A DNA stretch of 42,481 bases from the NCBI GenBank assembly GCA_947629175.1, contig CANRCT010000029.1:1-42481 (forward strand). Reading direction: 5' to 3'. A program made the position numbers and the translations under genes. The notes beneath the pieces are model-generated. The model worked only from the letters and a program-made list of their open reading frames with translations. It did not search any database and had not been told where the DNA came from. The DNA comes from an uncultured Muribaculaceae bacterium. Its GTDB lineage: Bacteria; Bacteroidota; Bacteroidia; Bacteroidales; Muribaculaceae. Shown here in pieces: positions 2,832 to 28,940 of the stretch. Numbering within the stretch: the first letter of the stretch is position 1; each line of letters starts with the position of its first letter.

Positions 2832-3260
2832 ATGAAAACAGACAATCTTCAAAAAGCCGGTCGGCATCCGAAGATTGACCCGATAGCATTTCGCTGTTCG
2901 GTCAACTTCACTGCTACGGAACATGCCATTCTGATGGCCATGTTTGATAAATCAGGGATTGAATCAATGGCTGCATTTGTCAAGATGCAGTTCTTCGGTA
3001 ATCCTTTCAAGGTATTTACGATAGATGAAAACACCAGAGTTTTCATCGACAAGCTCTCAGACTTCAATGCCCGTTTCAAGGTGATCGGGTCGAGTTACGA
3101 TGAATTTGTGAGGACACTCCGTACAAATTTCACCGAAAAGAGAGCCTTGTCGGTACTATATAATCTGGAACAAAAGACCATCGAACTTATCAAGGTCAGC
3201 CGTGAAATCATGGCACTCGCACAGAAATTCGACGAGCGATGGTTGCAAAAATCTCAATAG
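2832..3260 (+). CDS. mobA: Mobilization accessory protein MobA (relaxosome, MobC/RHH-like)
   Basis: A 142-residue protein of the small MobA family that precedes the relaxase in Bacteroides conjugative transposons. It typically begins MKT(D/E)NLQK(A/S)GRHPK followed by a strand and helices resembling a ribbon-helix-helix plus a C-terminal helical region. That start (ATG 2832) is preferred. In-frame GTG 2790 and ATG 2793 would add 14 or 13 residues of non-family sequence. It probably binds oriT and helps the relaxase melt and nick DNA. It overlaps the relaxase gene by 22 nt. The name MobA in this family does not mean the relaxase itself. Confidence 0.8.
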   Translation: MKTDNLQKAGRHPKIDPIAFRCSVNFTATEHAILMAMFDKSGIESMAAFVKMQFFGNPFKVFTIDENTRVFIDKLSDFNARFKVIGSSYDEFVRTLRTNFTEKRALSVLYNLEQKTIELIKVSREIMALAQKFDERWLQKSQ

Positions 3261-4552
3261 GCAATTCCCTCTACGGGGCTCTTGTCTATAATGGTGAAAA
3301 GCTGAATAAGGAGAAGGGAAAACTGATCTCATCCAACAAAATTTATAATGACGGCACCGGAAGTCTTGACATCCGCCGGGCATTTGAGGATTTCAAAAGA
3401 TGGATTCCGGCGCACACCCGCACTGAGCGTCCCATGATGCACATTTCCCTTAATCCACATCCGGACGACAGGTTGACGGATGCCCAGTTTTCTCAACTCG
3501 CGGATGACTACATGAAGATGATGGGGTTTGAAAATGTCCCTTTCATAGTTTTCAAACACGAGGACATAGACCGCTATCATCTTCATATTGTAGCACTGAG
3601 GGTCGATACCGACGGACGCTGTATTTCTGACAAGAACAACTTCTATAAGAATAAGAAGGTATGTCGCGAGTTGGAGAAGAAGTATGGTTTGAAAATAGCC
3701 GAGAGAGAAAAGGTATCTCCCGATACTCCCATTACCAAGGTTGATCCCAACGGCGACATCAAGCGTCAGGTGCAAAACACGGTCAAACTGGTTGGTATGC
3801 GCTGGCAGTTCCAGAGCATCGGCGAATATAACGCCATACTCGGACTGTATAATGTCAGATGCGAAATGACCGACGGCAAAGTCAACGGACGTGAGTATCA
3901 CGGTCTGGTCTATTTCGCCACCGATGATAACGGCAATATCATAGCCACACCTCTGAAAGCCTCCCGACTCGGCAAGTTCGCGAGTCGCACCGCTGTCGAA
4001 GGGAAGTTCGAGCGCGACAAGGAGAAAATCGACATCAAGCCCACAAAGAGGCTGGTGTCCGATGCAATGGCAGCGGCCACAAGCAAGGATGATTTCATCT
4101 CTAAGCTGAAGGAGAAGAACATTGACCTTGTGTTGCGCTACAATGCCGACGGCAGATTGTATGGCGCCACTTTCGTAGATCATAACAATCATGTCGCTCT
4201 CAACGGTTCCCGCCTTGGTCGTGAGTTCTCCGCCAATGCCCTCAATCTATGGTTCAATGACCCGACGGCAAAACCTCAGGTTCAGCCACAGCCGAGGCAG
4301 TCGCAAGGACAACAGTCGCAGGGTCAGCAGTCGCCACCTCCCGGTGGAGGTCAGCAGACCTCCGGTCAGACCCAGCCAAATCAGCCTCAGCAACAGCCAC
4401 GGCAGAAGCCGTCCCATTCAGACGATTTCGATTACTCGCCCGTACTGCCCGGATTGGAACTATTCCAGACCGGACCGGACTTCGACCCTGCGGAAGAAGC
4501 CTTCGCTCGCCGTGCGCGTAAAAAGAAAAAGAAGAAAGGACGCGGCCTGTAA
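3239..4552 (+). CDS. mobB: Relaxase MobB (MOBP-type nicking enzyme)
   Basis: A 437-residue relaxase that would nick oriT, attach to the 5' end and pilot the strand to the recipient. The metal-binding histidine motif is clear: H107-E-D-I-D-R-Y-H114-L-H116-I-V. Candidate catalytic tyrosines are Y12 and Y17 in the N-terminal segment GNSLYGALVYN. A second conserved stretch, CRELEKKYGL, follows near 140. From about residue 344 the chain is a disordered Pro/Gln-rich tail, and it ends in a run of Arg/Lys. It overlaps mobA and is followed 28 nt later by the coupling-protein gene, the mobA-B-C order of CTnDOT-like elements. Confidence 0.92.
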   Translation: MVAKISIGNSLYGALVYNGEKLNKEKGKLISSNKIYNDGTGSLDIRRAFEDFKRWIPAHTRTERPMMHISLNPHPDDRLTDAQFSQLADDYMKMMGFENVPFIVFKHEDIDRYHLHIVALRVDTDGRCISDKNNFYKNKKVCRELEKKYGLKIAEREKVSPDTPITKVDPNGDIKRQVQNTVKLVGMRWQFQSIGEYNAILGLYNVRCEMTDGKVNGREYHGLVYFATDDNGNIIATPLKASRLGKFASRTAVEGKFERDKEKIDIKPTKRLVSDAMAAATSKDDFISKLKEKNIDLVLRYNADGRLYGATFVDHNNHVALNGSRLGREFSANALNLWFNDPTAKPQVQPQPRQSQGQQSQGQQSPPPGGGQQTSGQTQPNQPQQQPRQKPSHSDDFDYSPVLPGLELFQTGPDFDPAEEAFARRARKKKKKKGRGL

Positions 4553-4580
4553 TATTCACTCAAAAAACAACGAAAAAACA

Positions 4581-6533
4581 ATGTCCCAGCAAGAAGATGA
4601 CCTCCGGGCACTGGCGAAAATCATGGATTTTCTCCGTGCCATCAGTATAGTTCTGGTCGTAATCAATATCTATTGGTTCTGCCCGGAACTCCACCCCACG
4701 CAACCTGACGATTTCTTCCGGATCGTCGATAAGGTGCTGAATGGTTTCGACCGCTCATGCCACCTGTTCCACAGCCAGTACACCGCCAAGTGGTTCGCCC
4801 TACTTCTCCTCGCCCTGTCGTGCTTCGGCACGAGGGGCGTAAAGAACGAGGACATTACATGGCGCACCATCTGGCTCTTTCTCGGAGCCGGACTTGTGCT
4901 GTATCTCATGCCCAAGCTGCATTACACCTTATATATAATGTGTACCGCATCCGGGTTCATCTGCCTGCTAATGTCCGGCAACTGGATAAGCCGCATACTC
5001 CGCAACAACCTGATGACCGATGTATTCAACAATGAAAACGAGTCATTCCAACAGGAGACACGCAAAATCGACAATGAATATTCGATAAATCTGCCCACAA
5101 GGTTCTACTACAGAAAGAAGTGGAACGACGGCTGGATAAATGTGGTCAATCCGTTTCGCGCCTCGATTGTACTTGGCACTCCCGGATCAGGAAAGTCGTA
5201 TGCCGTGGTCAATAATTTCCTTAAACAGCAGATAGAGAAAGGATTCGCGCTTTACTGCTACGATTTCAAATTTGCCGACCTCAGTACCATTGTCTATAAC
5301 CATTTCCTGAAGCACAGGAAGAAGTACCCCGAAGCCGCCAGATTCTATGTGATAAACTTCGACGACCCGAAGCGGAGCCACCGCTGCAATCCCATTGCCC
5401 CTGCCTTCATGACGGACATCGCCGACGCATACGAATCCGCCTATACCATAATGCTCAATTTGAACAAAACGTGGATCCAGAAGCAGGGCGATTTCTTCGT
5501 GGAGTCGCCTATCATCCTGTTGGCGAGTATTATATGGTATCTCAAACTCTACAAGGGAGGCAAATACTGCACATTCCCTCATGCCATCGAGTTCCTTAAC
5601 CGTCGGTATGAGGATATTTTTCCGATACTGTCCTCATATCCGGAACTGGAGAACTACCTGTCACCATTCATGGACGCATGGCAAGGTGGAGCCGCAGACC
5701 AGTTGCAGGGTCAGATCGCATCGGCGAAGATACCTCTGTCACGAATGATTTCGCCGCAGCTCTACTGGGTTATGTCAGGCAATGACTTCACTCTCGACAT
5801 AAACAATCCGAAGGCGCCCAAGATACTCTGTGTCGGCAACAACCCCGACCGCCAGAATATCTATGGCGCAGCCCTCGGTCTATACAATTCCCGTATTGTC
5901 AAACTCATCAACAAGAAGGATATGCTCAAATCGGGAGTGGTGATTGACGAGCTACCAACCATCTATTTCAAAGGGCTCGATAATTTGATAGCTACGGCAC
6001 GAAGCAACAAGGTTGCCGTCTGTCTCGGCTTTCAGGATTTCTCCCAGCTTGAGCGCGACTACGGCAAACCGGAAGCCGCCGTTGTGATGAATACCGTCGG
6101 CAATATCTTCTCCGGGCAGGTCGTAGGCTCTACCGCCAAGACCCTCTCCGAGCGTTTCGGCAAGGTGCTACAGAAGCGTCAGTCCATCTCGATCAACCGT
6201 CAGGACGTATCCACCTCCATCAACACGCAGATGGACAGCCTCATTCCGCCGAGCAAAATTAGCGGTCTGTCGCAGGGTATGTTTGTCGGTGCCGTCTCCG
6301 ACAATTTCGGAGAACGCATCGAGCAGAAAATCTTCCATGCCGAGATTGTGGTGGACAGCAAGAAGGTAAAAGCCGAGGAAGAGGAATACAAGACACTACC
6401 CATTGTCAATACATTCCTCAATGATGAAGGCAAAGACTGTATGGACGAAGTGATTCAACTGAATTATCGTGCCATCAAGGAACAGGTAAAAATGATTGTC
6501 TTGGAGGAAAAGGCCCGGTTGGGAATGAAATAG
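4581..6533 (+). CDS. mobC: Type IV coupling protein MobC (VirD4/TraG family)
   Basis: A 650-residue membrane ATPase that links the relaxase-DNA complex to the mating channel. The ATG at 4581 (MSQQEDDLRAL) is chosen. The frame stays open back to 4191, but that region overlaps mobB and reads as low-complexity shadow. Hydrophobic segments near residues 14-35, 70-80 and 92-130 anchor the N terminus. Walker A is GTPGSGKS at 199-206, and Walker B is VVIDEL with D456-E457. The central all-alpha region and the late arginine-rich motor segment match the VirD4 fold. Length is typical for Bacteroides MobC. It closes the mob operon; 156 nt separate it from the excision-type operon. Confidence 0.92.
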   Translation: MSQQEDDLRALAKIMDFLRAISIVLVVINIYWFCPELHPTQPDDFFRIVDKVLNGFDRSCHLFHSQYTAKWFALLLLALSCFGTRGVKNEDITWRTIWLFLGAGLVLYLMPKLHYTLYIMCTASGFICLLMSGNWISRILRNNLMTDVFNNENESFQQETRKIDNEYSINLPTRFYYRKKWNDGWINVVNPFRASIVLGTPGSGKSYAVVNNFLKQQIEKGFALYCYDFKFADLSTIVYNHFLKHRKKYPEAARFYVINFDDPKRSHRCNPIAPAFMTDIADAYESAYTIMLNLNKTWIQKQGDFFVESPIILLASIIWYLKLYKGGKYCTFPHAIEFLNRRYEDIFPILSSYPELENYLSPFMDAWQGGAADQLQGQIASAKIPLSRMISPQLYWVMSGNDFTLDINNPKAPKILCVGNNPDRQNIYGAALGLYNSRIVKLINKKDMLKSGVVIDELPTIYFKGLDNLIATARSNKVAVCLGFQDFSQLERDYGKPEAAVVMNTVGNIFSGQVVGSTAKTLSERFGKVLQKRQSISINRQDVSTSINTQMDSLIPPSKISGLSQGMFVGAVSDNFGERIEQKIFHAEIVVDSKKVKAEEEEYKTLPIVNTFLNDEGKDCMDEVIQLNYRAIKEQVKMIVLEEKARLGMK

Positions 6534-6689: not shown

Positions 6690-7109
6690 ATGAAAAAGTG
6701 GGAAATTTGCATCAGAAACATTAACGAAAACGAAATGGATATGACTAAAAAATTCCCACCCACGCCTGAGGAACTAAACCTCACGCAAGAGCAGATGATT
6801 CGGGAGATGTATCTCGACCGACGCAAGTCAGAGTGGCCGCAAGATGTGGATGCGTACATGATAACCACAGAGGAACTTGAAGACATAACCGGTCTTTGCC
6901 GCAAGACATTCGAGCGTATGCGCGAACGCGGCGAACTGGAATGCGTCAAGTTAGGCCACAAGGTGAGATATTCCCTGATGCACTTGATGAAAGTGGCACA
7001 GAGCGGTCTCTTCCCCCGCAATAAGACAATGGTCTTATCGGAAATATTCCGTCGCAGGCTCGTATCACAGATCGAGTCAATACGGAAGAAAGGAGACGGC
7101 TATGATTGA
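6690..7109 (+). CDS. HTH DNA-binding protein, Xis2c-like (excision operon)
   Basis: A 139-residue protein with a MerR/excisionase-type helix-turn-helix at about 57-100: MITTEELEDITG, CRKTFERMRERGEL, then the wing KLGHKVRYSL. The fold matches the helix_turn_helix_17 excisionase group. In CTnDOT the excision operon is xis2c-xis2d-orf3-exc, and the order here (two small HTH proteins, a DUF3945 protein, a topoisomerase) is the same. It would act as recombination directionality factor and perhaps transcription activator. ATG 6690 is used; an ATG at 6735 is a possible alternative. It overlaps the next gene by 8 nt. Confidence 0.75.
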   Translation: MKKWEICIRNINENEMDMTKKFPPTPEELNLTQEQMIREMYLDRRKSEWPQDVDAYMITTEELEDITGLCRKTFERMRERGELECVKLGHKVRYSLMHLMKVAQSGLFPRNKTMVLSEIFRRRLVSQIESIRKKGDGYD

Positions 7110-7506
7110 CCTCGCACAAGTGATTCCTCCTGAAACTTCTGCCGAGCATCGTCTGGAGTTAGAAAAATGTCTGAGTCAGCTTTTCTCGCTGTTGATCCGA
7201 ATCTTTATCCCCGGCTTCTCATTGCTCTCACCGGTTAGCGATGAAGAAGAAACATACGGGTTGAATCCGGAGGCTCAGTATAACGACCAGGAATTTCAAC
7301 AGATGCTTGGGGTGACTGACAAGACCACCTACAGGTGGCGAAAAAACGAATTAATTGCCTACTTCAAGGGTGCAGGTGGAGGCAAAGGTGGTAAAATCTG
7401 GTACACCGGACAGGCCATCATTGATTTCTACCGGACCTACAGAGTAGCTAAGAGGCTTAAACTCTTGAAACCCATCTTCAAAGAAATCCCGAAAGGGCAT
7501 GTGTAA
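7102..7506 (+). CDS. HTH DNA-binding protein, Xis2d-like (excision operon)
   Basis: A 134-residue protein with a hydrophobic N-terminal helix (SQLFSLLIRIFIPGFSLL, probably packing rather than membrane) and a helix-turn-helix at about 58-90: YNDQEFQQMLGV, then DKTTYRWRKNELIAYFK and a Gly-rich wing GAGGGKGGKIWYTG. The second of two adjacent HTH genes, it matches Xis2d in position and size. In CTnDOT, Xis2c and Xis2d promote excision with Exc and also switch on tra and mob promoters. That role is inferred here from gene order. Confidence 0.72.
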   Translation: MIDLAQVIPPETSAEHRLELEKCLSQLFSLLIRIFIPGFSLLSPVSDEEETYGLNPEAQYNDQEFQQMLGVTDKTTYRWRKNELIAYFKGAGGGKGGKIWYTGQAIIDFYRTYRVAKRLKLLKPIFKEIPKGHV

Positions 7507-7527: not shown

Positions 7528-8997
7528 ATGCAAGAACAAGATTTGAAAAACCAAGACGCGCTCATTGCGCACAACCGCCAGACAGGAGAATCAGGTGTGG
7601 TGACAGGACTCAAACAGGACGGTACACCACAGATGGAAGACCCTGCCAAGGCATCCAAATTCCTGACATTCGACCGTCATGCCGACATACTCGACAACTT
7701 CCTTCGCAACTTCATGGCCCAGTGCAAGAATCCGACAATCTTCGGCTTCTTCAAGGTGCCGGCGGACCAAGTGGGTACGGTAGGTTTCGCCGTAAACCAG
7801 ATGGTCAAGAATCCCGACTCGCAGGCCGCTAAAGAGATGCTCGCCGGATACGAGGTCAAGACCCCCGATGTAGCTCCCAAGCAGGAACAGTCCCAACCGG
7901 AGCAGAAGGAGGCCACAGCCGAGAGCGTCGGACAGGCTCCCGAGCCTGAGCAGCCCCAGCAGCCTCAACGCTTTCAGCAGATTGACGAATCCAAAATCAA
8001 CTGGGATAATCTCGCTCTCTGGGGAATCACCAAGGAGTCGCTCGGCGAACAGAATCTCCGCAACATGGTAAACAACCGAATGTCTGACCTTGTGAAAGTG
8101 ACTCCGACCTTCGGCAACGAGAAATATGAACTGGAAGCCCGTCTATCGCTCCGTGAAACACCGGACGGCAGCGTCAAGGTCGTGCCTCACTTCATCCGTC
8201 AGGAGCCCAATCTCTCGCAGGAGTTTCACGGCTACACCTTCAGCAAGGAGGACAAGGATATGCTGAAAAAGACCGGCAATCTTGGTAAGGTCGTAGAACT
8301 CAAAACCGCCGACGGCAAGGTCACCCCATCTTTTGTCAGCATCGATCGCAAGACCAATGAGCTGATGGCTCTCCCGGTTGCCGCGATGTATGTCCGAAAC
8401 AAAATCGGTGAGACGGAACTGTCTCCCAAGGAAATAGGCATACTCAAAGCCGGTCACCAGCTTCCCAAGGAAGTCATACTTTCCAACGGGAAGACATTCA
8501 AGACTGTGCTCCAGATTTCGGCGGCTGAGCAGAAGGTGGAATTTGTCCCCCATCAGTGTCGCCTTGACGCTCCGGCACAAAAGACCGAACAGGCTCAGGT
8601 ATCGAACGGTGAGAGCAAGCAGAAGACTCTCGACTGGCTCACCGCCGATGGTAAAATCAAACCCATCGGCAAATGGAAGGGTGTCGAGTTCACCGAACAG
8701 CAGCAGCGTGACTATCAGGAAGGCAAGACCGTCAAGCTTGAGAATGTCCCCGACAAAGCGGGAAAACCGGCCACGCTCTACATCAGGTTCAACATGGAAA
8801 AAGGCCGTCCCTATACCTATACTTCCGATCCCGACAACGCCAAGGTCATCACTCCCGCCGAAGAAAGCAAGACTCAGGTTGCGGTCAACAACGAGGGGAA
8901 GACCAATGAGGCTACCAAGGAGTTGAAGGAACCTCTCGACAAGGGGCAGACACAACCCAAACCGGAGCAGAAAAAGAAAACCGGACAGAAGCTCTAA
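7528..8997 (+). CDS. DUF4099/DUF3945 protein (orf3 position of excision operon)
   Basis: A 489-residue protein. The N-terminal 110 residues include NFLRNFMAQCKNPTIFGFF. A Pro/Gln/Glu-rich linker covers about 113-150. A DUF4099-like region starts at about 156 (INWDNLALWGIT) and runs to about 345. A DUF3945-like segment, KTLDWLTADGKIKP to the YIRFNMEKG strand, lies at about 365-425. The tail is charged and disordered. These domains occur in Bacteroidetes ICE proteins and in large polyvalent proteins, with no established activity. It lies 21 nt after the Xis2d-like gene and 99 nt before the topoisomerase, as orf3 does in CTnDOT. Confidence 0.75.
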   Translation: MQEQDLKNQDALIAHNRQTGESGVVTGLKQDGTPQMEDPAKASKFLTFDRHADILDNFLRNFMAQCKNPTIFGFFKVPADQVGTVGFAVNQMVKNPDSQAAKEMLAGYEVKTPDVAPKQEQSQPEQKEATAESVGQAPEPEQPQQPQRFQQIDESKINWDNLALWGITKESLGEQNLRNMVNNRMSDLVKVTPTFGNEKYELEARLSLRETPDGSVKVVPHFIRQEPNLSQEFHGYTFSKEDKDMLKKTGNLGKVVELKTADGKVTPSFVSIDRKTNELMALPVAAMYVRNKIGETELSPKEIGILKAGHQLPKEVILSNGKTFKTVLQISAAEQKVEFVPHQCRLDAPAQKTEQAQVSNGESKQKTLDWLTADGKIKPIGKWKGVEFTEQQQRDYQEGKTVKLENVPDKAGKPATLYIRFNMEKGRPYTYTSDPDNAKVITPAEESKTQVAVNNEGKTNEATKELKEPLDKGQTQPKPEQKKKTGQKL

Positions 8998-9009: not shown

Positions 9010-9047
9010 CACACCACGGCTCGCAGGTGTGAAGGCATCTGCGAGCC
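9010..9047 (+). promoter_or_regulatory. Two mutually exclusive hairpins before the topoisomerase gene
   Basis: A perfect 9-bp stem GGCTCGCAG (9018-9026) / CTGCGAGCC (9039-9047) competes with CACACC (9010-9015) / GGTGTG (9026-9031), since the second uses bases in or next to the first. No T tract follows, so it is not a standard terminator. It lies between the stop of the DUF3945 gene and the topoisomerase start and could tune expression of the distal operon genes. Confidence 0.45.
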
Positions 9048-9096: not shown

Positions 9097-11100
9097 ATGA
9101 TTACTATTATAGCTCAAAACCAGCACGTTGCTCTCATCATAGCCCGTGCTATCGAAGCCGATGAAGAGGCTACTCGCTACTACTATAACGAGAAATACTA
9201 CGTCACTTGGATGACCGGTAAAATGGTTGAGATCAACACCCCCAGAGCTCTGGCATCATACTGGTTCCGCAACGGGAGTTTCCCTCATCTCCCCAAGCAC
9301 CTCACTCTTTCGCTGACAACAAAGAACCGCAAGGATGGTACCAGCATGACAGCGGAAGCCGCAGCCCAGAACGCCGCAATCCGTTCGCTCATCGCCAAAA
9401 GCGGCAAAATCATCGTCGCGACCGAGCCTGATGCCGAAGGTGAACTCAACTTCCGCTATCTCTACTCATACCTTGGTACTGACGTGCCTTTCTCACGGGC
9501 AATCATCAATGAGCTGACCATAAGCAGCATCCGCTTCGCCATCACTCATCCTGTCAAGGCCGAGAAATACGAGAACTGGTACAAGTCAGCCCGCCTTCGT
9601 GATGAGGCAAACTGGCTCATCAACGTCAATGCCCGTCGTGCTGTGGCTTTCGCCGCCGGTCGCAAGACCTATCAGATCGGTCGAACCAGCACTCCCGTGC
9701 TTCGCATGATTGCCGAACGCAATCAGGAGGTGGACAATGCACCGACTCCGGTGAAGATTCCCTTCACCACACTGGCTGTCAAGGACTCGGAAGGTAATAT
9801 CTTCGCAATGAAAAGCGATGTGGAGAACTCACGTGCTCCTTCAGCCGATTCGGATGTCAGAATGATTTCAGTGGAGAAGACAGAAGTCAAGATAAAGACT
9901 CCGAAACTGCACAATCTCGCCACACTCCAGATGGAGGCCGCCCGCGAATATGATATGGCTCCGCTGAAATCCTACGAAGCGGCAATGCGTCTCTACGAGC
10001 GCAAACTCATCTCGTTCCCGGCAACCACCGCAACCACTGTCACACGCCGCCGCTATGAAGAGTGCCGTCGTACACTCGCCAAGATGCTTGCGTACAAGAA
10101 CTTCGCATCTGTCGCTGCGGTGCAGCCCCAGACTCTTCAGGGTCGTGCGGTTGACACTCACGAAATGGGGCTTCAGGGCATAGTAATCACATCGGTACCG
10201 GCTCTGGTAATTGATGACGATATGTCGAAAATCTACTATCTCATCGTGCGTCGTATGTATCAGGCCTTCTCAAAGGCGGCTGTCATCATCCGCTCCAAAC
10301 TGGTAGCGGAATGCGAAGGGATTACTTATAGCTGGGAGGGGCAGAAATATAAGACCAAAGGTTGGCACGCCCTCTTCCCCGAAACGGCTCTCCCCAGCAG
10401 CCCGGTACCGACATTCGTGACCGGAGACACTGCCGCCATCTTCTCAAAAGGCAGTGGCACAGCATCGACACCAGTTCTCCGGTATTTCACTGTGGCTTCG
10501 CTCATGGAGCGACTGTACGAGGAAAGAGGTACAAGTCACGCCAATGAAATCGCCAAGGACATAATCCACCTCGAAGAGATGGGCATGATCAATCGGGACA
10601 TCTATGGCCACATCTTCCTCACCGAAAAGGGCATCGCGCTTAACAGCATCGTCAAAGGCATGAAGATTTCCTCAATGGATGCAGTGTATGAGGTAGATTC
10701 TCTCATCAGCAGCAAACTGCGCGGCACAATCTCCAAGTCGGCCTTTGACAAGCAACTCCAGCAGTTCACTGCCGATGTGACCGCCGAGATCCTCGCATCG
10801 CCTCGACTCTATCCCGTGATGGAAGAGGACGTTCCCTGTCCCCACTGCACCGAGGGGGGCATGAAAATATATGGCAAAGTCGCCAAGTGCGACAACCCTG
10901 ACTGCGGTCACTATGTGTTCCGCCAGTTCCTCGGTAAAATTCTCGACCACACCCAACTCAAAAAGTTGCTCACCACCGGCACCACAGACCACATCAAGGG
11001 ATTCCGCTCATTCAAGGGTAATCTCTTCGCTGCAAGGGTTGTAATCAACGCCAACGGAAATCCACAAGTGACAAGCAAGCCCCAATCTTCCAACACCTAA
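9097..11100 (+). CDS. Exc-like type IA topoisomerase homologue lacking the catalytic residues
   Basis: A 667-residue protein with the topoisomerase III layout: TOPRIM at 1-150, the central toroid (YQIGRTSTPVLRMI near 190), the active-site helix at about 300 and a C-terminal Cys4 zinc-finger-like unit starting CPHC at 581-584. Key residues differ. The TOPRIM Glu (IAEK in active enzymes) is Q7. The DxDREGE motif is E110-P-D112-A-E114-G-E116. The nucleophile motif (TYPRTD) is S-F307-P-A309, so the catalytic Tyr is Phe and the following Arg is Ala. It is therefore unlikely to cleave DNA. As recalled from the literature, Exc of CTnDOT needs no topoisomerase activity for excision, so a structural excision role remains plausible. 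Confidence 0.85.
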   Translation: MITIIAQNQHVALIIARAIEADEEATRYYYNEKYYVTWMTGKMVEINTPRALASYWFRNGSFPHLPKHLTLSLTTKNRKDGTSMTAEAAAQNAAIRSLIAKSGKIIVATEPDAEGELNFRYLYSYLGTDVPFSRAIINELTISSIRFAITHPVKAEKYENWYKSARLRDEANWLINVNARRAVAFAAGRKTYQIGRTSTPVLRMIAERNQEVDNAPTPVKIPFTTLAVKDSEGNIFAMKSDVENSRAPSADSDVRMISVEKTEVKIKTPKLHNLATLQMEAAREYDMAPLKSYEAAMRLYERKLISFPATTATTVTRRRYEECRRTLAKMLAYKNFASVAAVQPQTLQGRAVDTHEMGLQGIVITSVPALVIDDDMSKIYYLIVRRMYQAFSKAAVIIRSKLVAECEGITYSWEGQKYKTKGWHALFPETALPSSPVPTFVTGDTAAIFSKGSGTASTPVLRYFTVASLMERLYEERGTSHANEIAKDIIHLEEMGMINRDIYGHIFLTEKGIALNSIVKGMKISSMDAVYEVDSLISSKLRGTISKSAFDKQLQQFTADVTAEILASPRLYPVMEEDVPCPHCTEGGMKIYGKVAKCDNPDCGHYVFRQFLGKILDHTQLKKLLTTGTTDHIKGFRSFKGNLFAARVVINANGNPQVTSKPQSSNT

Positions 11101-11112: not shown

Positions 11113-11532
11113 ATGAAAATTTCACTCGACCAATACGAGCGTATGCTCTTCAAATATCTCTCGGACAACAACTTTCCCGAAGCGGAAGACTATGGTTTCA
11201 TCGCTTCAAGAGCTGATGAAGCAGCCGAGGCGTTCAATCAGGCTCGTCTCAATGGCAAAAACGTCACTGAGGCACAGGAAATAGCCATACAAACACTTAT
11301 GGCTGACCTTAACGGAGAGACATTCGATGAACTCGTCCGTGGTATCCTTGAAAACTATTCACCGGAAGAGGGATACGACTTCTTCATGGCAGATATGGAG
11401 GAGCGTCTCGAAGACCTCCGTGAGAGATATACTCCCGGCGAATACCCTGTGTATTCGGCTGAGTACGATGCCTTCAAGACCGAACTGCTCGGTGTAATCG
11501 ACGATTATTTCACAACATATCTTCCTCTTTAA
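11113..11532 (+). CDS. DUF1896 protein
   Basis: A 139-residue acidic, mostly helical protein of the DUF1896 family, common in Bacteroides conjugative elements directly before the large methylase-helicase gene. Visible features are an N-terminal [21 protein letters not shown] and a C-terminal helix ending [12 protein letters not shown]. There are no catalytic motifs and no membrane segments. It sits 12 nt after the topoisomerase gene and 2 nt before the 2043-residue protein, so it is co-translated with them. Its size and acidity would suit a partner or inhibitor of a DNA-binding protein, but that is speculation and the function is unknown. Confidence 0.8.
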
Positions 11533-11534
11533 TA

Positions 11535-14500
11535 ATGGCATATAACAGACTACAGACGATGCGCGACAACATCGAGGCGATAAGGCTTGCCCTGCGTCTC
11601 GGTGTTGAGAAGCGGTCGGCGCAGACTGCCGAGGAGATTGCATTGCTGCGCAAGTATGCCGGGTTTGGAGGCTTGAAGTGTATTCTCAATGATGCCAACG
11701 AGCTGGCGGATGCCGCCAAGTGGAGCAAGTCAGATATTGAACTGTTTGCGCCTACGGTTGAGTTGCGTCGTCTGATTCACGACTATTCGCGTGACGACAA
11801 GGAGTTTAACCGATATATGGAGTCGTTGAAGGCGTCAACGCTGACCGCTTTCTATACTGACAGCCGTATTGTGGATGCGATCTCCGACGCGCTGAAACAT
11901 CAAGGAGTCGAAGTGAAAAAGTTTCTGGAGCCGTCGGCGGGTCAAGGAGTTTTCGTGGATTCATTTTTGCGGAATTATCCCGGCTCTGAGGTACTTTCGT
12001 TTGAGAAGGATTTGCTGACAGGTAAAATCTTACAGGCATTGCATCCGTCAACTACTGTGAATATCGAGGGCTTTGAGCGTATAGACCCCGATTTCAACGG
12101 ATACTTCGACGTGGCTGCATCCAATGTTCCTTTCGGCGATTTTGCCGTGGCAGATCCAAAGTATGCAACAAGCAAGGAGATTGGCTACCGTCAGGCGGCA
12201 AAGTCGTTGCACAATTACTTCTTTCTCAAAGGTCTCGATCAAGTGAGAGAGGGCGGTCTGATTGCCTTTATCACATCGCAGGGTGTGATGAACGCGGCAT
12301 CGCCCTTTATCCGCATGGAGCTTGTGAAAAAGGCTGACCTTGTGGCGGCTCTGCGTCTGCCCAACAACACTTTCTCCGACAATGCAGGAACGGATGTAGG
12401 CTCTGACCTGATTATTCTCCAGAAGCACACCGAAAAGAAGTCTTTGTCGGCTGATGAAGAGTTTTTCATTCAGTCGGTTGTTGACCGGGGTACAAAGGTG
12501 TCGGGCAACAAATTCTTTCAGGCTTTTCCGCAAAATGTGATATGCACCGATGCAAAGGTTGGCACTGACCAGTACGGCAAACCCGCAATCGTGTACCACC
12601 ATGACGGAGGTGTCAATGGCATTGCCGAAGACTTGCGCAGGGCACTCGATGAGACGCTGCACCTGCGCCTGAATATGGAATTGTATAACGCCAACGGTAT
12701 CAAGCCGCCTACGCCGGACCCTGTTACACCTACACCTACACCTACTCCCAAGCAGGAGGCAAAGGCAGAAACGCCAAAGGTTGAAAAGAAGTCGGGCCTC
12801 ACGAATACGCCGCTGATGCAACAGTATCAGGAGATGAAAAAGAAACATCCCGATGCTGTACTGCTTTTCAGAGTAGGCGATTTCTATGAGATTTTCGGTA
12901 AGGATGCGGTTATCGCCTCAGAGATTTTGGGTATAACCCTGACTCGTCGCCAAACCGGTATTGACAGCCGCATAGAGTTGGCTGGCTTTCCGCATCATGC
13001 CCTCGACACATATCTTCCCAAACTTGTTCGGGCCGGTAAACGTGTGGCAATATGTGAGCAATTGGAAGACCCGAAGCTGAAAAAGACACCGAAGCAGAAG
13101 GTGGTAGAAACGGTTACACCCAATCAGCCGCCCAAAGTAGAACCTAAGCCGGAGCCAAAACCTGAGCCTGAACCTGCTCCAAAACCTACTCCCGCTCCCA
13201 TAGAGCCAACAAAGGCTGAACCAACCAAGGAGATTGAAACTGACGGTAGTCCTGATTATACCGATAATCCCGACCCTCGCCTGTATGCCTACAATCTCTT
13301 TGGAGAATTAGAGCCAATCGGAAAGCCTCGCCGTCAGCCGAAACCTGCTGAGGATGCACCAAAACCGAAACCGAGTGTCGAAGTCAAGGACATACCCGTC
13401 AAAAAATTCCGTCCGTTAAGTGAAAAGGAATTGGAGTTTTACGGCTCTCTCAACTGGGAAGACAATCCTCCTATCAATGGATTCTATGAAACCATGATGT
13501 CGATAGCCCATCGTCAGTTGGAGGAAATGCGTCTTGAACGTGAGGCGGAAGAAGCAGCCAAACAAGCCGCCGCCAATGGCGAGACTATCCAAGAAGGTGG
13601 TACCACAATCCAACGTACCGAAGGCGATTTCGTTCCCGGTCAACGCTCTACCATCAAGGCAGAGCCTGTCAAGGTCGATATGTCGCCCCGTCCTTTCTTG
13701 GAGGATATTCAGTTCTTCCACCATAACGGCAGTATGGTGGTGCAGGACGGTATGGTAGGTTTCCTCTCGGAAGTCCGCAAGAACGGCGCAACGTTCAATC
13801 CGTTGTCCCTCAAACCGGAACAGGCGAAGCGAGCCATGCTGTATGTTACTCTGTCTGAGACGTATCAACAACTCTACAATTACGAGGCTGAGACGCATGA
13901 ACCATCGGAACATCTGCGCGAACACCTCAATCAGTATTACGACGAGTTTGTGGAGAAATACGGTAATCTCAACGAGAAACAGAATGTGAGATTTATCCTG
14001 ATGGATGCCAATGGCAGGGATGCTCTTGCATTGGAGCGCGGAGAAAATGGTCGGTTTGTCAAGGCTGACATTTTCGATCACCCCGTTTCATTCGCCATTG
14101 ACGAAGTTACTTCAGTAGATACTCCGATGGAGGCGTTATCCGCATCGCTCAACAAATACGGTGAGGTCAATCTCGAATATATGTCAGGACTGGTGGATAT
14201 GGATAAGGATTCTTTGGTGGATAACCTCGAAGGTCACATATTCTATAATCCGCTGGTCGAAAACTACGAGATTAAAGACCGCTTCATTGCCGGAAATGTC
14301 GTGGCGAAAGCCAATGATGTGAGGGCATGGATTGACCGAGAGGAAGAGCGCATCAAAGGCTTCCCCGGATATGACGGCGTTGAACCGTTCATAGCCTTGT
14401 CGAAAGACTCCCTCAAAGCGTTGGAGGAAGCCCGGCCCCGCCGTATCGAGTTCGACGAGCTGGATTTCAACTTCGGCGAGAGGTGGATTCCGACGGGTAT

Positions 14501-17500
14501 CTACTCCGCTTATATGTCGTATCTGTTCCACACCGATGTGAAGATTGCCTATTCTTCCTCAATGGACGAGTATTCGGCAGAGGCATCGAGAAAGAACATG
14601 ACCATCTGGGAGGAGTTCTGCGTCAGAGGATATTACCGCACCTACGACGGTATGAACCTTCTGAAACACGCCCTGCACAACACCGTTCCCGACATCAAGA
14701 AGTCGGCGGGCAAAGATGAAGACGGACACGACATCAAGGTGCCGGACAACGAGGCTATCCAACTCGCCAACACCAAGATTGACGAGATAAGAAATGGCTT
14801 CTCGGAATGGCTCGAAGCCCAGTCGCCTGAGTTCAAGGAGAAACTCGTTGACCTCTACAATGACAAGTTCAACTGCTTTGTGCGTCCGCAATATGACGGC
14901 AGTCACCAGACCTTCCCTGACCTCAATATGAAATTATTGGGTGACAGGTATGGAATCCACTCCATTTATCAGTCACAGATGGACTGTATATGGATGCTGA
15001 AACAGAACGGCGGTGGCGTGTGCGATCATGAGGTAGGAACAGGTAAAACGCTGATAATGTGCATTGCAGCGCATGAAATGAAGCGTCTCGGGCTGGCTCA
15101 CAAACCGATGATTATCGGTCTTAAAGCCAATGTTGCCGAGATAGCCATGACCTATCAGAGTGCCTATCCCAATGCAAGGATTTTGTTTGCCGATGAAAAG
15201 AGTTTCAAGGCCGACAACCGCGTGGCGTTCTTCAACCAGATCAAGAACAACGACTATGACTGCGTGATAATGTCGCACGACCAGTTCGGCAAGATACCGC
15301 AGTCACCGGAGATGCAGCAGCAAATCCTTCAGGCGGAGCTTGATACAGTCGAGGAAAACCTCGAAGTACTGAAACAGCAGGGGCATGACGTAAGCCGCGG
15401 TATGCTGAAAGGTCTTATCAAGCGTAAGGAGAACCTGACCGCCAAGATAGCGACCATTCAATATCAGATGGACCAGAACCGTGACAACGTGGTGGATTTC
15501 AAACAGATGGGCATCGACCATATCTTCGTTGATGAATCACATCAGTTCAAGAACCTTATGTTCAACACCCGACATGACCGTGTGGCGGGTCTCGGCAACA
15601 GTGAAGGTAGCCAGAGGGCACTCAACTTGTTGTATGCCATACGCACAATTCAGGAGCGTACTGGCAAAGACCTCGGAGCAACATTTCTGTCGGGTACTAC
15701 AATCAGTAACTCGCTTACTGAATTGTATCTGCTGTTCAAGTATCTTCGTCCGAATGAGCTTGAAAGACAGGACATCAGGTGCTTCGACGCATGGGCGGCA
15801 ATCTTCGCAAAGAAGACAACCGACTTTGAGTTTAATGTCACAAATCATATAGTCCAAAAGGAGAGATTCAGGTTCTTTATCAAGGTGCCGGAACTTGCGG
15901 CATTCTACAATGAGATAACGGATTACCGTACTGCCGAAGATGTTGGAGTTGATAGACCGATGAAGAACGAGATTCTTCATAATATCCCGCCGACGCCCCA
16001 GCAGGAAGCCTTCATCGAGAAACTGATGAAGTTTGCCGAGAGTGGCGATGCTACCATATTGGGACGCGCACCGTTATCTGAAACCGAGGAAAAGGCGAAG
16101 ATGCTCATTGCCACGGACTATGCCCGTAAGATGGCTCTTGATATGCGTATGATTGACCCCAACGCCGAGGATGACCCGAACAACAAAGCCTCTCATTGTG
16201 CCAAGATGATTGCTGAATATTACAGAAAATACGATGCCCAGCGTGGCACTCAGTTTGTATTCAGTGACCTCGGGACTTACAAGCCCGGCGAGTGGAATGT
16301 CTATTCCGAAATCAAGCGCAAAATGATTGAGGATTACGGTATCCCGGCGCATGAAATCAGGTTTATACAGGAGTGTAAAACCGAGAGGTCAAGAAAGGCA
16401 GTCATCGAGGCTATGAACAGCGGCGATGTGAGAGTTTTGTTCGGCTCAACAACGATGTTGGGTACCGGTGTTAATGCACAGCAGCGGTGTGTCGCGGTCC
16501 ATCACCTCGATACACCCTGGCGTCCAAGCGATTTGCAACAGCGTGACGGTCGTGCAGTTAGAGCCGGCAACGAGATTGCCAAGTTATATGCTGACAACAA
16601 GGTGGATGTAATCATCTATGCGGTTGAGAAATCTCTGGACTCCTACAAGTTCAATCTTCTTCACTGCAAGGCGACATTCATCGACCAGCTCAAATCCGGC
16701 GCACTCGGAGCGAGAACCATCGATGAGGGTGCAATGGATGAGAAGAACGGCATGAACTTCTCGGAGTACATGGCTATCCTCAGTGGCAACACCGACCTGT
16801 TGGAGAAAGCCAAGTTGGAGAAACGTATCGCGGCACTGGAGTCAGAGCGAAAAGCCCACAACAAGGGCATATCCGATTCAAAGTTCAGGCTTCAGACCAT
16901 CAGCCACGACATTGCCAACAATGAAGCGGCAATAAGTCGTATGAAGGAGGATGCTGCCAGATATGCGGCAGTTGTTCAGCGAGACAAAGACGGCAACCCC
17001 GTCAACAATCTCACCATCGACACCTGCAACCTCCGCGACGAGCAAAATATGGGCATCCACCTGCAAGGTCTGGCGATGAAAACCGACACCCACGGTCAGT
17101 ACCAGCGCATTGGAGAAGTCTATGGTTTCCCCATCAGCATTATCTCGGAGCGTAGTCTGGTTGATGGCAAGGAGACCGTACAGAACCGATTTGTGGTCGA
17201 AGGCAACTACAAATACAAGTTCAACAACGGCTTCATAGCCATGTCAGACACCCATGCCGCCTGCATGAACTTTGTCAACGCTCTGGAGAAGATACCCGGC
17301 ATCATCGCCCAGTATGAGGAACGAACCGCCAAACTAAAAGCCGACGTTCCCCAGCTCGAAGCCATCGTCGCCAAGCAGTGGGGCAAAGAGGACGAGTTGA
17401 AGCAACTCAAATCAGACCTCGCCGCCCTCGACCGCAAGATCACCGCCGCCCTCGCTCCCAAGAAAGAGGACGATGACGGCGTTGAGAACAAGCAGGTCAA

Positions 17501-17666
17501 CACCGTGGAAGCTCCTACCCAAACCAATGATTCAAAGGAAACAATGGTTGCAGAACCTGCGGCTCCCGACTACCGCCAACGCGAGCCGCTAAGTCCCCGC
17601 ATAATAATCGGAGGCTGCGGAGCCACTCCACCCGGAGGGTTTCGCGCCGCCGGCCCAAAACTCTAA
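11535..17666 (+). CDS. Giant methylase-MutS domain I-SF2 helicase fusion (DarB-like polyvalent protein)
   Basis: 2043 residues. An N-terminal adenine methyltransferase-like domain has a motif I-like [13 protein letters not shown] near 130 and NVPFGD (motif IV, normally NPPF/Y) near 196. Pro-rich linkers flank a MutS domain I at about 421-515, with VGDFYEIF (the Phe-x-Glu mismatch wedge), [16 protein letters not shown] and [10 protein letters not shown]. An uncharacterised region follows. The helicase has Walker A GTGKT near 1168, DESH near 1331 and motif [12 protein letters not shown] near 1668, then a coiled-coil tail. The methylase-helicase plan recalls phage P1 DarB, which protects incoming DNA from restriction. 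Anti-restriction or post-transfer DNA processing is inferred. Confidence 0.88.
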
Positions 17667-17675
17667 AATTAGGTC

Positions 17676-17713
17676 AGCCGGCCATGATGAAATAAAATTC
17701 ATTGTGGTCGGCT
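17676..17713. terminator. Bidirectional hairpin between convergent genes
   Basis: A 16-bp stem with G-U wobbles (AGCCGGCCATGATGAA / TTCATTGTGGTCGGCT) and loop ATAAAA fills the 62-bp gap between the methylase-helicase gene and the convergent RteB-like gene. There is no strong T tract. Confidence 0.45.
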
Positions 17714-17728: not shown

Positions 17729-19036
17729 TTAACGATATTTCATGGGAATATTATAGAGTTCCATCCATTTATAAAGTGTTTTTCTGGAAACACGCAATGT
17801 CGATGCAGCCTTAGCTTTGTTCCCTCTGCTTTCTCTTAATGCCTGTTTTATAAGTCTGGCTTTATCATGATCAGTGTCAAACTTATCAATGTTAGGAGTA
17901 AGAACTATATCATCCGGCTTTATCTTCTTTCTTGTCGTAACAGTTGCAGCGTGTCGCAAAACATGGAACAACTCTCTTATATTCCATGACCACACATGTC
18001 CTGCCAACTTCTTATAGGATTCTTTTGAAAGGCTGATATGCGCCCGGTCGTTTATTACGCAAAATATATCAAGCAGTTCTGTCGCCATAGGTTCAATGTC
18101 CGACTTAAAATCAGTAATTGACGGTATGTTCATCACATGACGAGTTATTATTCTATACAGATTCTCGGAAAAGATTTTATCCGAAACACGATTTTCCAGA
18201 ACACTGCTTGTGGAACATATGACCAGACCGTTGAATCTACGCTCTCCCTTGGGTGCCCTCGTTGCCAGACTTGAAAGCAGCACATCTGCCAAAATTTCCT
18301 GAGCCTCATAATCCAGTTTCTCTATTTCATGAAAATACAGAGTGCCCTTTTCAGCTTCAGAAAACATTGACTTCAGATTGTTTCTAAACGAGTCTTTCTC
18401 CGCCTTACCCCAGATCACATGGCCGTCCTCATCATCACTGTTGCAGTTTGCAAAAAGGAAACGATAAGCGCTTCTGCTGCTTTTTGAATGAGCCAATTGT
18501 GACAGGCAGTATTTTCCTGTACCCGGTGCCCCTTTTATCAGGACCACTTCACCGGGAGTGCCGTTGATTTCTTTTCTCATGCTCATGAACTCGCTTTTTA
18601 CATTTCCAACCCATTTTAGCGATGAGTCATGGCTGAACAGACTCATCAAAGGGATTGAAAAGGCATCCTGTTCGCTGCCAATATGGTAGAAGAAACCATT
18701 TTTTCCAACTTTCCACGAGTCCGCCGATACAGTGCTGTATCTTGAATGTGCTACACAAAAAGCCTTTATCTTGTCATGATTAGCACTGGCTATCTGAATC
18801 AACTCTTTTCCAACAGTGTCATACATTGTGATGTCCGCAATAAGGACACGGTATTTGCCCGAAAGCAATGCCTCCATTGCTTCCTGCTCATCAGTGAACG
18901 GGTCTACATATTCAGTCTTGAATGGAAGATGATGCAGTAAAAGATCAACTCCATCGCGAGTCGGACTGAATAGAAGTGCTCTCCATGAATCGGAAGCGCA
19001 CCCTTCGTTTGTGGATATTTTGAATATTTCTTCCAT
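17729..19036 (-). CDS. RteB-like AAA+ regulator with pseudo-receiver and Fis-type HTH
   Basis: 435 residues from the ATG at 19036; a TTG ten codons upstream lies in AT-rich leader. A receiver-like domain (about 15-110) keeps an Asp in VLIADITMYD but lacks the acidic pair after strand 1. The AAA+ domain has Walker A GAPGTGKY near 169-176 and the Walker B position YFHEIE near 234-239, where the usual Asp is His. The LFGHEKGAFTGA loop that contacts sigma-54 is replaced by VIWGKAEKDSF. A Fis-type HTH (RGNKAKAASTLRVSRKTLYKW) ends the chain. It resembles RteB, the CTnDOT regulator, but no RteA-like sensor kinase lies in the window. Confidence 0.82.
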   Translation of the reverse strand: MEEIFKISTNEGCASDSWRALLFSPTRDGVDLLLHHLPFKTEYVDPFTDEQEAMEALLSGKYRVLIADITMYDTVGKELIQIASANHDKIKAFCVAHSRYSTVSADSWKVGKNGFFYHIGSEQDAFSIPLMSLFSHDSSLKWVGNVKSEFMSMRKEINGTPGEVVLIKGAPGTGKYCLSQLAHSKSSRSAYRFLFANCNSDDEDGHVIWGKAEKDSFRNNLKSMFSEAEKGTLYFHEIEKLDYEAQEILADVLLSSLATRAPKGERRFNGLVICSTSSVLENRVSDKIFSENLYRIITRHVMNIPSITDFKSDIEPMATELLDIFCVINDRAHISLSKESYKKLAGHVWSWNIRELFHVLRHAATVTTRKKIKPDDIVLTPNIDKFDTDHDKARLIKQALRESRGNKAKAASTLRVSRKTLYKWMELYNIPMKYR

Positions 19037-19095
19037 TTTTTGAAAAATCGAATAAAAAAATATCAATGCAATTTGCGTAATATTTTTATACCTCG

Positions 19096-19219: not shown

Positions 19220-20044
19220 ATGCAAGGTGACATCACGAACCAAAAGCGTATGTTTATGGTTTTTAGCTCAGAAACAGTTGATAAAATCAGCCGATTCCAC
19301 GTTCAACTAAATCAAGTAAAAATGATTAATAATAATTTACTACAAACGCAATTTGTATCTTCTCTTAAAAACGGAGACCACTCGGCGCTACACTCCGTAT
19401 ACGACACTTTCGCAGCCGAGGTAGTAGCCACATGCAAAATCCAGCCGGAGGAGTGGCTTGACGCACGCACTGCACTTCTGGCGGTCGAGGTGGAAATCCA
19501 GTCGTTCATCCACATAGCGTCTGTTGCCGCCAAAGAAACAATCGCAATAGCGAAGAAGGCCCTTGACCTTGTGAAAGGCGTGGCGGATATTATCAGGGAG
19601 TATTGCTCCCGCATAGCCATTCATATTCCTTCACGCACTACCGTCAATGATTCGGCACCTCCCAAGAAGGAATCAAAGCGCGAGACCAAAATGAAATGGA
19701 CAGGTACCAAGGCAGACCTCTATGAGAAAATCTACGGAGACTATCTCATGGGCAGCTTCAACAATGGGAAAGCCACACTTGCGGAGCTGGTAAGCCATCA
19801 TGGCGAGATATACGGCATGGCACTCACCGAAGAAGAGTGCTATCAGACACTGCGCCGAATGAAGGGACGCAGGGGCAAGGACAAGCGACCTTACCACGAC
19901 CATACATTCAAAATCCATTCTCGCACGTACTACATAAGTGAGGCTGCATGGCGCCTCAACGAACTGATGCGAAAGCATGAAGACGGCGACGGACGCCGCA
20001 CCAGAACAGAAATCAAACCTTATCCCGGCAGCACTATGATATAA
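19220..20044 (+). CDS. RteC-like regulator of ICE excision
   Basis: A 274-residue protein. The C-terminal 120 residues match the RteC pattern: MKWTGTKADLYEKIYGDYLMG, then NNGKATLAELVSHHGEIYGM, a Tyr-x-Thr helix and a run of basic residues. The N-terminal half is helical (EEWLDARTALLAVEVEIQSF). In CTnDOT, RteC activates the xis2c-xis2d-orf3-exc promoter. Here the homologous operon starts at 6690, so the same link is likely. ATG 19220 is kept, although the first 30 residues could be replaced by a start at M36 (MINNNLL). It is transcribed away from the RteB-like gene across the repeated operator candidates. Confidence 0.8.
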   Translation: MQGDITNQKRMFMVFSSETVDKISRFHVQLNQVKMINNNLLQTQFVSSLKNGDHSALHSVYDTFAAEVVATCKIQPEEWLDARTALLAVEVEIQSFIHIASVAAKETIAIAKKALDLVKGVADIIREYCSRIAIHIPSRTTVNDSAPPKKESKRETKMKWTGTKADLYEKIYGDYLMGSFNNGKATLAELVSHHGEIYGMALTEEECYQTLRRMKGRRGKDKRPYHDHTFKIHSRTYYISEAAWRLNELMRKHEDGDGRRTRTEIKPYPGSTMI

Positions 20045-20128: not shown

Positions 20129-21424
20129 TTACAATATATCAGGGTGAGAAGGCTTACTCTTTTTAGAGTTGGCCTTTTTTGTTGCCTCATCAATTTCTTC
20201 TGCCGTCATGTTGCCGATTTCAGGAAGAGCCGAGGCAAGGCGTTGCATATCAGCCCTGATTTTCTCATTGGTGATTCGGGCGTATATCTGAGTCGTCTTG
20301 ATATTGGTATGACCGAGCATCTTCGATACCGTCTCGATGGGCATACCGTTGGCAAGTGTCACCGTTGTGGCAAAGGTGTGGCGGGCGAGGTGAAACGTAA
20401 TGTTCTTGTCGATGCCGCACACAGTGGCAAGTTCTTTCAGATAACTGTTGGTGCGCTGATTAGATATGACAGGAAGGACATGCCCGTCTGTGCATTGGCC
20501 CTTGTACTTCTCGATTATCGCGAGGGGATAATCAAGAAGTGGCACGTTGACGGCAACGCCGGTTTTCTGGCGATGGGTCATAATCCATTTTGACCCGTCA
20601 AAAGCCTCCTTGATGTCGCTCTCCATGAGATTGGCCACATCAATATATGCCAGCCCGGTGAAGCAAGCGAACAGAAACATGTCTCTCACATGGTCGAGAC
20701 GAGGAATGGGAATCACCTTTGAGGCGATACGGTCAAGCTCGTCAGTGGTCAGGTAGCCACGGTCCACTTCCTCCTTCTTGACCTTGTAGTTGAGAAACGG
20801 ATCCTTGAATATCATTCCATTGTTCTTGGCGTAGAGGACAATCATGCGAAGAGTCTGAATGAACTTGGCGGTAGTGTTCACACCGCACTTTGACACCCGG
20901 CGGAGATAGCTCTCATAGTCCACGATAAATTCGTAGGAGAGTTCACGCAGGGCAATGTCGGTGATGTTGTAGGCCTCCTTCATGAATTCCTGAAGGCGAC
21001 GGTAGCCGCGCTCATACTTGCGGTAGGTCTCTCGGCTCTTGCTTACATCGACGAGTTTTTCAGCGTTGTCCAGCCACTTCTTGAAAATCTCCATCAGAGT
21101 CTCGGCGCGGGCCGAGATACCGAGATAGGCGTTCTTGACCTTTTCGAGGGTCACTATCTCGTCACGTCGCTCCATTTCCTGAATATGGAAAAGGATGGCA
21201 GCTCTTATCTCTGCGAGGAAATCGTTGAGCTGATTCGCCTTCTTCGTCTTTCCTCTCATCTTGCCGGCTTCAGTGTCCCAGTCGCCGACTGCACAGGTTG
21301 CCTTGGTAGAAATCTGTGCTGCTTCCTTGTTGACGGTGAGACGGAGGAAAATTCCAGACTCCCCGTTCTTGTTGACCACGTTCTTCCTGAGGAAAAAGGA
21401 GGTCTTGTAATTGGTTCTTACCAT
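20129..21424 (-). CDS. int: Tyrosine recombinase (ICE integrase, IntDOT-like)
   Basis: 431 residues from ATG 21424 (MVRTNYKTSFFL); an upstream in-frame start would add 15 atypical residues. An N-terminal arm-binding region, a SAM-like core-binding domain (about 110-220) and a catalytic domain are present. Catalytic residues visible are the beta-hairpin Lys (THRQKTG), H345-x2-R348 in HLARHTF, H372 in LGHTNIKTT and the nucleophile Y381 in IYAR. The first Arg of the usual TGxR box is absent (CFTGLAYIDV), as in IntDOT and many Bacteroides integrases. It sits about 400 bp from the tRNA-Ser 3' end and is transcribed away from it, the expected layout for an element inserted there. Confidence 0.92.
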   Translation of the reverse strand: MVRTNYKTSFFLRKNVVNKNGESGIFLRLTVNKEAAQISTKATCAVGDWDTEAGKMRGKTKKANQLNDFLAEIRAAILFHIQEMERRDEIVTLEKVKNAYLGISARAETLMEIFKKWLDNAEKLVDVSKSRETYRKYERGYRRLQEFMKEAYNITDIALRELSYEFIVDYESYLRRVSKCGVNTTAKFIQTLRMIVLYAKNNGMIFKDPFLNYKVKKEEVDRGYLTTDELDRIASKVIPIPRLDHVRDMFLFACFTGLAYIDVANLMESDIKEAFDGSKWIMTHRQKTGVAVNVPLLDYPLAIIEKYKGQCTDGHVLPVISNQRTNSYLKELATVCGIDKNITFHLARHTFATTVTLANGMPIETVSKMLGHTNIKTTQIYARITNEKIRADMQRLASALPEIGNMTAEEIDEATKKANSKKSKPSHPDIL

Positions 21425-21456
21425 ACCTTTTGGATTTGAGAATTGTGCAATGTTGC

Positions 21457-21694
21457 GGGTACAGTTCAAAGTGCAACGAAAGATGGTTCATTGTCTCTGC
21501 TCTTTGATAATGTCCCCGGGTTCCGGGTACACCGTACCATGTGCAAAATTACGGGTTAAAAATCAGGTTGGCGAAGACTTGTGTCCGACTAAATTGCGAC
21601 TTTTCAGATACTTATGAGGGGCACTGTTGCAATTGGCAGTTTTACTGTTGCATTTTCGGTTTCTGCAACGATTTTTGCAACGGATATGCAACGT
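21457..21694. repeat. Integrase-proximal repeat cluster (candidate arm-type and control sites)
   Basis: TGCAAC occurs six times in 225 bp: forward at 21472, 21664, 21676 and 21687, and inverted (GTTGCA) near 21626 and 21647. The three forward copies at 21664-21693 are 11-12 bp apart. GGGTACA occurs at 21457 and 21525, the latter in the inverted repeat GGTAC-ACC-GTACC (21526-21538), and again at 21820 and inside the tRNA at 21867. Such clusters next to an integrase gene are typical of arm-type sites. No att core could be confirmed, because the other element end is outside the window. Confidence 0.5.
21544..21551 (-). promoter_or_regulatory. -7 box TAATTTTG for the integrase
   Basis: CAAAATTA on the plus strand reads TAATTTTG on the minus strand. 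The inferred start near 21539 falls on the inverted repeat GGTAC-ACC-GTACC at 21526-21538, which could therefore act as an operator. The leader is about 115 nt. Confidence 0.5.
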
Positions 21695-21826: not shown

Positions 21827-21830
21827 TTCG

Positions 21831-28798: not shown

Positions 28799-28822
28799 CG
28801 GCAATGACTGGTTTATTATCCG

Positions 28823-28936: not shown

Positions 28937-28940
28937 CACT

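Follow-up and report, generated by a model that had tools for sequence, protein, structure and literature searches.

Known systems and the locus studied

The nearest described counterparts of the gene presented here are the Exc topoisomerases of CTnDOT and CTnERL, integrative and conjugative elements (ICEs) that carry MobB, MobC, and RteB- and RteC-like genes. CTnDOT Exc reportedly works in excision even when its catalytic Tyr has been mutated, and Exc and the Xis2 proteins are said to act on the transfer operon too. Since this Tyr is reportedly dispensable, the purpose that a topoisomerase serves in the excision of CTnDOT-type elements has been an open question. Here we analyze a 42,481-nucleotide stretch (the window, a whole contig of the Muribaculaceae genome G000), in which a forward-strand gene (9097..11100, 667 amino acids) of an ICE of this type encodes an Exc-type type IA topoisomerase that appears to be catalytically inactivated.

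The window gene shares with CTnDOT exc its position after helix-turn-helix (HTH) genes and orf3, and its product shares the overall fold and length. CTnDOT-type Exc proteins are also its nearest active relatives by sequence and by the orf3 tree (we take these relatives to be equivalent to CTnDOT Exc from their gene content). Active Exc keeps the Glu, Lys, DAGREGE, YPR, HH, and GIGTPATRA signatures, whereas the window protein has lost the Glu, Lys, Tyr, Arg, HH, and loop; the CTnDOT Tyr mutant was reportedly engineered, while here the change occurs in a natural lineage. A second comparison is Escherichia coli topoisomerase III entry 1i7d, which has the same ring fold and a Phe at the active-site position and is titled as a noncovalent complex with an 8-base single-stranded DNA oligonucleotide; a protein of this fold can thus bind DNA without cutting it. 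The 1i7d protein is presumably a mutant made in the laboratory, with the rest of the enzyme intact, whereas the window protein is changed at other catalytic positions as well. The host chromosomal topB matches the same Pfam families and is intact in the genome, but it falls in a separate clade outside all Exc forms. A literature search of titles and abstract openings, with most subscription journals outside its coverage, returned nothing on inactive Exc or on DUF3945 together with a topoisomerase.

Loss of the catalytic residues

The initial annotation described a topoisomerase III-like open reading frame (ORF), and the Pfam matches bear this out: Topoisom_bac (E = 6.2e-38) covers residues 157-525 (9565..10671, from residue numbers), Toprim_Crpt (E = 8.4e-12) covers the C-terminal topoisomerase repeat at residues 602-655 (10900..11061), and Toprim reaches 21.4 bits, just under the cut-off of 23.1. 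It also listed four catalytic changes. Alignment with active Exc and chromosomal topB proteins places Q7, F307, and A309 where these have Glu, Tyr, and Arg (the F307/A309 segment lies at about 10015-10023), and alignment to the E. coli topoisomerase III entries puts F307 at the active-site position. The fourth, a departure from DxDREGE, is the weakest. We rejected DxDREGE as the ancestral motif because active Exc reads DAGREGE, and the EPDAEGE of the window protein is still acidic at positions 110, 112, 114, and 116; taken by itself, this change would be no proof of lost metal binding. In the relatives the same set is lost or altered (EPTQE, DPTER, DPTDR). Further changes, absent from the initial list, include Lys8 to Asn, the His of the GH motif to K42, Gln198 to Ser, the loss of both His of DHHA, and a 12-residue gap where active Exc carries GIGTPATRAAII, which removes the GIGTPATRA loop.

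Other parts of the protein have persisted. The Cys pairs C581/C584 and C598/C603 are retained in the C-terminal repeat, and a four-domain type IA ring with its Toprim domain is predicted. Residues assigned to strand cleavage, phosphate contact, and religation are lost from a protein that is still predicted to form the complete ring, and from the sequence the window protein should be without topoisomerase activity. As the initial annotation held, sequencing error can be dismissed, since the same losses occur in three further genomes, beyond what chance or error would produce.

A clade of four full-length relatives

Searching 297 genomes of the family returned three full-length relatives, one at 57% identity and two at 35% (in genomes G055, G130, and G195), all with the same catalytic losses; the G130 ORF translates into 668 amino acids without an internal stop. 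A profile of the four proteins was then run against 397 genomes of the family, 34 of the genus, and 393 of the order, and at E ≤ 1e-60 it matched 12, 2, and 18 of them, respectively, with no further clade member among the matches (at the order level 29 of 30 matches were read, G483:C20 being left out). All 62 aligned rows outside the four retain Glu7, Lys8, Tyr, and Arg. With the motif columns dropped, the four form one clade (support 100/100) within the Exc radiation and apart from topB, so the Tyr-less forms do make a clade, which the initial annotation had proposed to check. A set of 31 active Exc proteins has 132 sites with conservation of at least 97%; all four clade members differ at 50 of these and all four keep 39, the other 43 being mixed.

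Scans of genome-contig and viral-contig collections with the window protein gave no relative, nor did scans of the viral contigs with the clade profile, the half-length set, or the Ser set described below. In the genome-contig collection the clade profile recovered one distant active form besides two members already known. All matches in the plasmid and phage collections stayed below 60% identity; among four such records read for motifs, three were active-type at the covered positions (one without the N-terminus in its stretch) and one, from Parabacteroides distasonis, was partly altered. This last, a plasmid record (L170, 301-2061), carries behind a DUF4099 gene a 586-amino-acid protein annotated as a topoisomerase, in which Glu7 is replaced by Asp, Lys8 by Arg, and the GH histidine by Asn, with YPR and HH kept; it is possibly an intermediate.

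A wider family of inactive genes behind orf3

The window gene is one case within a much larger radiation of inactive forms. Weak topoisomerase matches in the genomes of two relatives came from even more degenerate genes, each located immediately after an orf3 gene, and for this reason orf3 itself was used as the query. This search scored at most three candidates per genome, so that its counts are lower bounds: orf3 was found in at least 40 of 397 Muribaculaceae genomes, at no fewer than 64 places. Adding the two places known from the weak matches, 66 were examined, and in 61 a topoisomerase-derived gene lies downstream, making orf3 its constant upstream partner. Among the rest, the contig stops shortly after orf3 in four (L108, L135, L144, L146), and L143 has no topoisomerase gene.

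Six residues were tested in these 61 genes (E7, K8, D110, E114, Y307, and R309). All six are kept in 10, one of which is split (L116), while the other 51 keep at most three (three in 5 genes, two in 25, one in 19, none in 2), and Tyr and Arg never occur together in these 51. The active-site Tyr is replaced by Ser in 22 inactive genes, by Phe in 6, and by Asn in 1, and it is kept in 22. By genome, 34 of the 40 carry inactive forms and eight carry active-type ones, five having both. Several classes are found among the inactive proteins: the window clade, with Tyr to Phe; proteins of 652-693 amino acids in which Ser replaces the Tyr and the C-terminal Cys pairs are present; proteins of 511-539 amino acids, likewise with Ser for the Tyr, that lack the C-terminus; half-length proteins of 295-388 amino acids comprising Toprim and domain III, most with the Tyr but without the Arg, in which the ring is lost; and a single 416-amino-acid form with Asn.

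At the level of the order, orf3 was detected in 24 of 393 genomes, and fifteen stretches were read. Two repeat known active loci, and L156, L160, and the split L154 are Exc-type with YPR and HH, while in eight of the fifteen, including one at a contig end, the stretch holds no topoisomerase gene. L161 and L162, which belong to a different family (code f20), carry altered topoisomerase genes in broken frames after orf3 (ILAGKASA, EPDED, ITYPK/ITFPK). Altered forms are thus not strictly limited to Muribaculaceae; intact inactive ones were seen there only, among the genomes examined.

Two further features accompany the family. Between orf3 and the inactive gene of the window lies a G+C-rich hairpin of 13 pairs with a 4-base loop (9018..9047, forward strand), and structured gaps of differing sequence (z of -2.5 or lower against 30 simple shuffles) occupy this place in 16 of 24 inactive loci. 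Five CTnDOT-type active loci, with gaps of 53-62 bases, show no such structure; L152, the sixth active locus measured, reaches z -2.9. The DUF3945 repeats of orf3 matched the C-terminal repeat of type IA topoisomerases with hhalign values of 95-96%, against 66% for a control region, and from these profiles they look homologous to the C-terminal repeat of Exc.

A proposed non-catalytic partner in an excision-transfer module

Conservation, linkage, and mobility, together with the predicted loss of catalysis, are the steps that the analysis shows. Building on them, we consider it reasonably likely that Exc became a non-catalytic partner in an HTH/Orf3 module for excision and transfer, the exact role being one that we infer. 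Inactive Exc would be a nucleoprotein subunit of this module, acting in complex with the HTH proteins (xis2c/xis2d-like) and Orf3, and its Toprim-domain III cleft would bind DNA, probably single-stranded or distorted DNA at att sites, the origin of transfer (oriT), or promoters. The Orf3 repeats could provide in trans the domain that the half-length forms have lost. The steps likely to be helped are Int-mediated excision, activation of transfer genes, or both; besides a DNA-binding or architectural role in excision, one in transfer-gene activation, or a different one, would agree with these data.

A non-catalytic protein could also act outside this control, as a decoy or competitor of host topoisomerase III, or in protection or replication of the transferred strand. 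The host retains active topB and topA, and the ring is retained in the predicted fold, both of which suit such a role. We nevertheless regard it as rather unlikely, given the constant linkage to orf3 (61 of 66 places), the HTH-related ORF that immediately precedes orf3 in 46 of 61 loci (as scored with a profile to which some of these hits had contributed), an int gene close behind the topoisomerase-derived gene in L093, L094, L095, and L098, and the absence of the ring from the half-length forms.

One loss or several

In the topoisomerase tree (370 columns, motifs dropped) all inactive representatives fall in one clade (99/96). Long branches, above all that of L111, render this tree suspect, and orf3 was therefore taken as an independent marker. 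On the orf3 tree the partners of inactive genes again form one clade (26 rows, 98/96), beside seven CTnDOT-type partners, although the window clade is not resolved there as a single group. Catalysis was probably lost once, in a sister lineage of the CTnDOT-type elements, after which the inactive proteins gave rise to forms of full length, C-terminally trimmed forms, and half-length forms. Repeated independent losses, gathered into a single clade by long-branch attraction, could account for the long branches and for the different fates of the Tyr, but the one clade is recovered from orf3 as well, on a tree whose branches are far shorter, and we judge this scenario improbable.

Selection, divergence, and movement

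Comparing the inactive genes of G055 and G130 gave a nonsynonymous rate (dN) of 0.0128 and a synonymous rate (dS) of 0.173, a ratio of 0.074 that is similar to those of the neighbor genes. Over 54 inactive pairs, not independent because of shared and identical sequences, dN/dS is 0.071-0.337, and over 14 intact active pairs 0.057-0.117. The window gene against that of G195 has a dN of 0.386, a dS of 1.76 (near saturation), and a dN/dS of 0.22; at their 57% identity there are no internal stops, where random change would be expected to produce about 20. The inactive genes are under purifying selection and have been kept intact. They have also moved: the G055 and G130 elements are 94.9% identical over 13.9 kb and 92.5% over 5.2 kb, yet their hosts have different genus codes and rpoB loci only 80.0% identical. 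The common ancestor of these two genes was already inactive, so the element must have crossed between genera after the loss. Catalytic losses, purifying selection, and inter-host movement agree with the natural lineage proposed in the initial annotation, in which the absence of activity is predicted from sequence.

A decaying pseudogene on a dying element would agree with the fast divergence of the inactive forms, the graded shortening of the relatives, and the broken copies in L116 (active-type), L154, L161, and L162. We rejected it, as highly improbable, on the evidence of selection: purifying selection persists across the 54 pairs, the frame stayed open over the divergence from G195, and the element crossed genera with its ORFs intact, which contradicts decay for the clade. 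A still-active topoisomerase with another nucleophile and metal site, for which the four acidic residues of EPDAEGE and six Tyr invariant across the clade (Y293 being new to it) could be cited, is barely credible. On the evidence of sequence, an alternative Tyr was rejected as nucleophile: F307 aligns where the active-site Tyr would be, the loss extends jointly to Arg309, Lys8, Glu7, the His pair, and the GIGTPATRA loop, and relatives have lost the acidic set too.

Several observations weigh against the proposed role of inactive Exc as a module partner. Most inactive dN/dS values exceed the active ones; the inactive proteins are 57% identical where their orf3 products are 74% identical, while active pairs at 70-77% in orf3 keep 71-81%, and they are 34-36% identical at 51-53% in orf3, where four active pairs at 50-53% keep 49-66%. 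The faster divergence and higher ratios indicate a partial loss of constraint. In some ICEs orf3 occurs without any topoisomerase gene (L143 and, outside the family, L155, L163, and L166), so the role is not universal. Regarding the repeats, the hhalign control region also scored, and hmmsearch matched 14 of 47 orf3 sequences, none from inactive or CTnDOT-type elements. A full-length Bacteroidales TraG was not found in the G000 assembly (best match 95.7 bits, cut-off 261.55), although in G055, G130, and G195 the element with the inactive gene also carries a full-length one, and the window copy of the element may therefore be incomplete.

The element in the window

The left half of the window is the end of an ICE, the contig end falling inside its transfer region, and the right half is chromosomal in appearance. 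ParA, DUF3408 genes, and a MobC_2-type mobA are followed on the forward strand by the mobB relaxase (3239-4552; NF041325, 510.8 bits, cut-off 400) and the mobC coupling protein gene (4191-6533; NF041326, 1037.1 bits, cut-off 900). Two HTH genes in xis2c/xis2d-like positions come next (6690..7109, an HTH_17 protein of 139 amino acids by Pfam, and 7102..7506, an HTH_17-like protein of 134 amino acids at 26.6 bits, just below the cut-off of 27), then orf3 (7528..8997, 489 amino acids, with DUF4099 and two DUF3945 repeats by Pfam) and the inactive gene. This confirms the order of two HTH genes, a DUF3945 protein, and a topoisomerase at the exc position that had been read from the ORFs; G055, G130, and G195 have one HTH gene rather than two.

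Downstream on the forward strand lie a DUF1896 gene (11113..11532, 139 amino acids, Pfam), the next gene of the module and present also in the three other elements of the clade, and a gene for a methylase/helicase-like protein of 2043 amino acids (11535..17666). The latter contains a strong match to MutS domain I (PF01624, E = 5e-37, residues 425-529). They are followed by an RteB-like sigma-54 activator (17729-19066, reverse strand, Pfam), in which Pfam matched no receiver domain, an RteC-like regulator of the element (19220-20044, forward), and, at the end of the element, a tyrosine recombinase (integrase; 20129..21469, reverse, Pfam) beside tRNA-Ser(CGA) (21830-21917). Relaxase, coupling protein, RteB/RteC-like regulators, and integrase are thus all found in the element carrying the window gene.

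Two insertions, of kinds judged by eye, interrupt genes of the related elements. An ORF resembling a group II intron reverse transcriptase splits mobC of G195 (L083+L084, about 28522-30171), and splicing could keep this gene working. Three tandem tyrosine-recombinase-like ORFs split the helicase gene of G130 (L081, about 14495-17689).

Implications for type IA topoisomerases in mobile elements

Taken to its widest, our tentative reading is that the ICEs of Muribaculaceae may have founded a non-catalytic protein family from a type IA topoisomerase, by one catalytic loss and a subsequent radiation. In this family the gate (domains II and IV) would be dispensable and the Toprim-domain III pair constant, the partner Orf3 would be built of topoisomerase C-terminal repeats, and the core would be a DNA-reading or DNA-bending module for the control of excision and transfer. 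If so, topoisomerase chemistry would not be what Exc contributes to these elements. For annotation there is a warning, in that these genes match topoisomerase models and yet cannot be expected to act as topoisomerases. A lineage that appears to have shed catalysis and then the gate domains, under selection, offers a ready series of trimmed variants with which to locate the essential part of Exc, and it would represent a topoisomerase fold retained as a non-enzyme in mobile DNA, with a larger meaning possible should the working core turn out to be the half-length forms.
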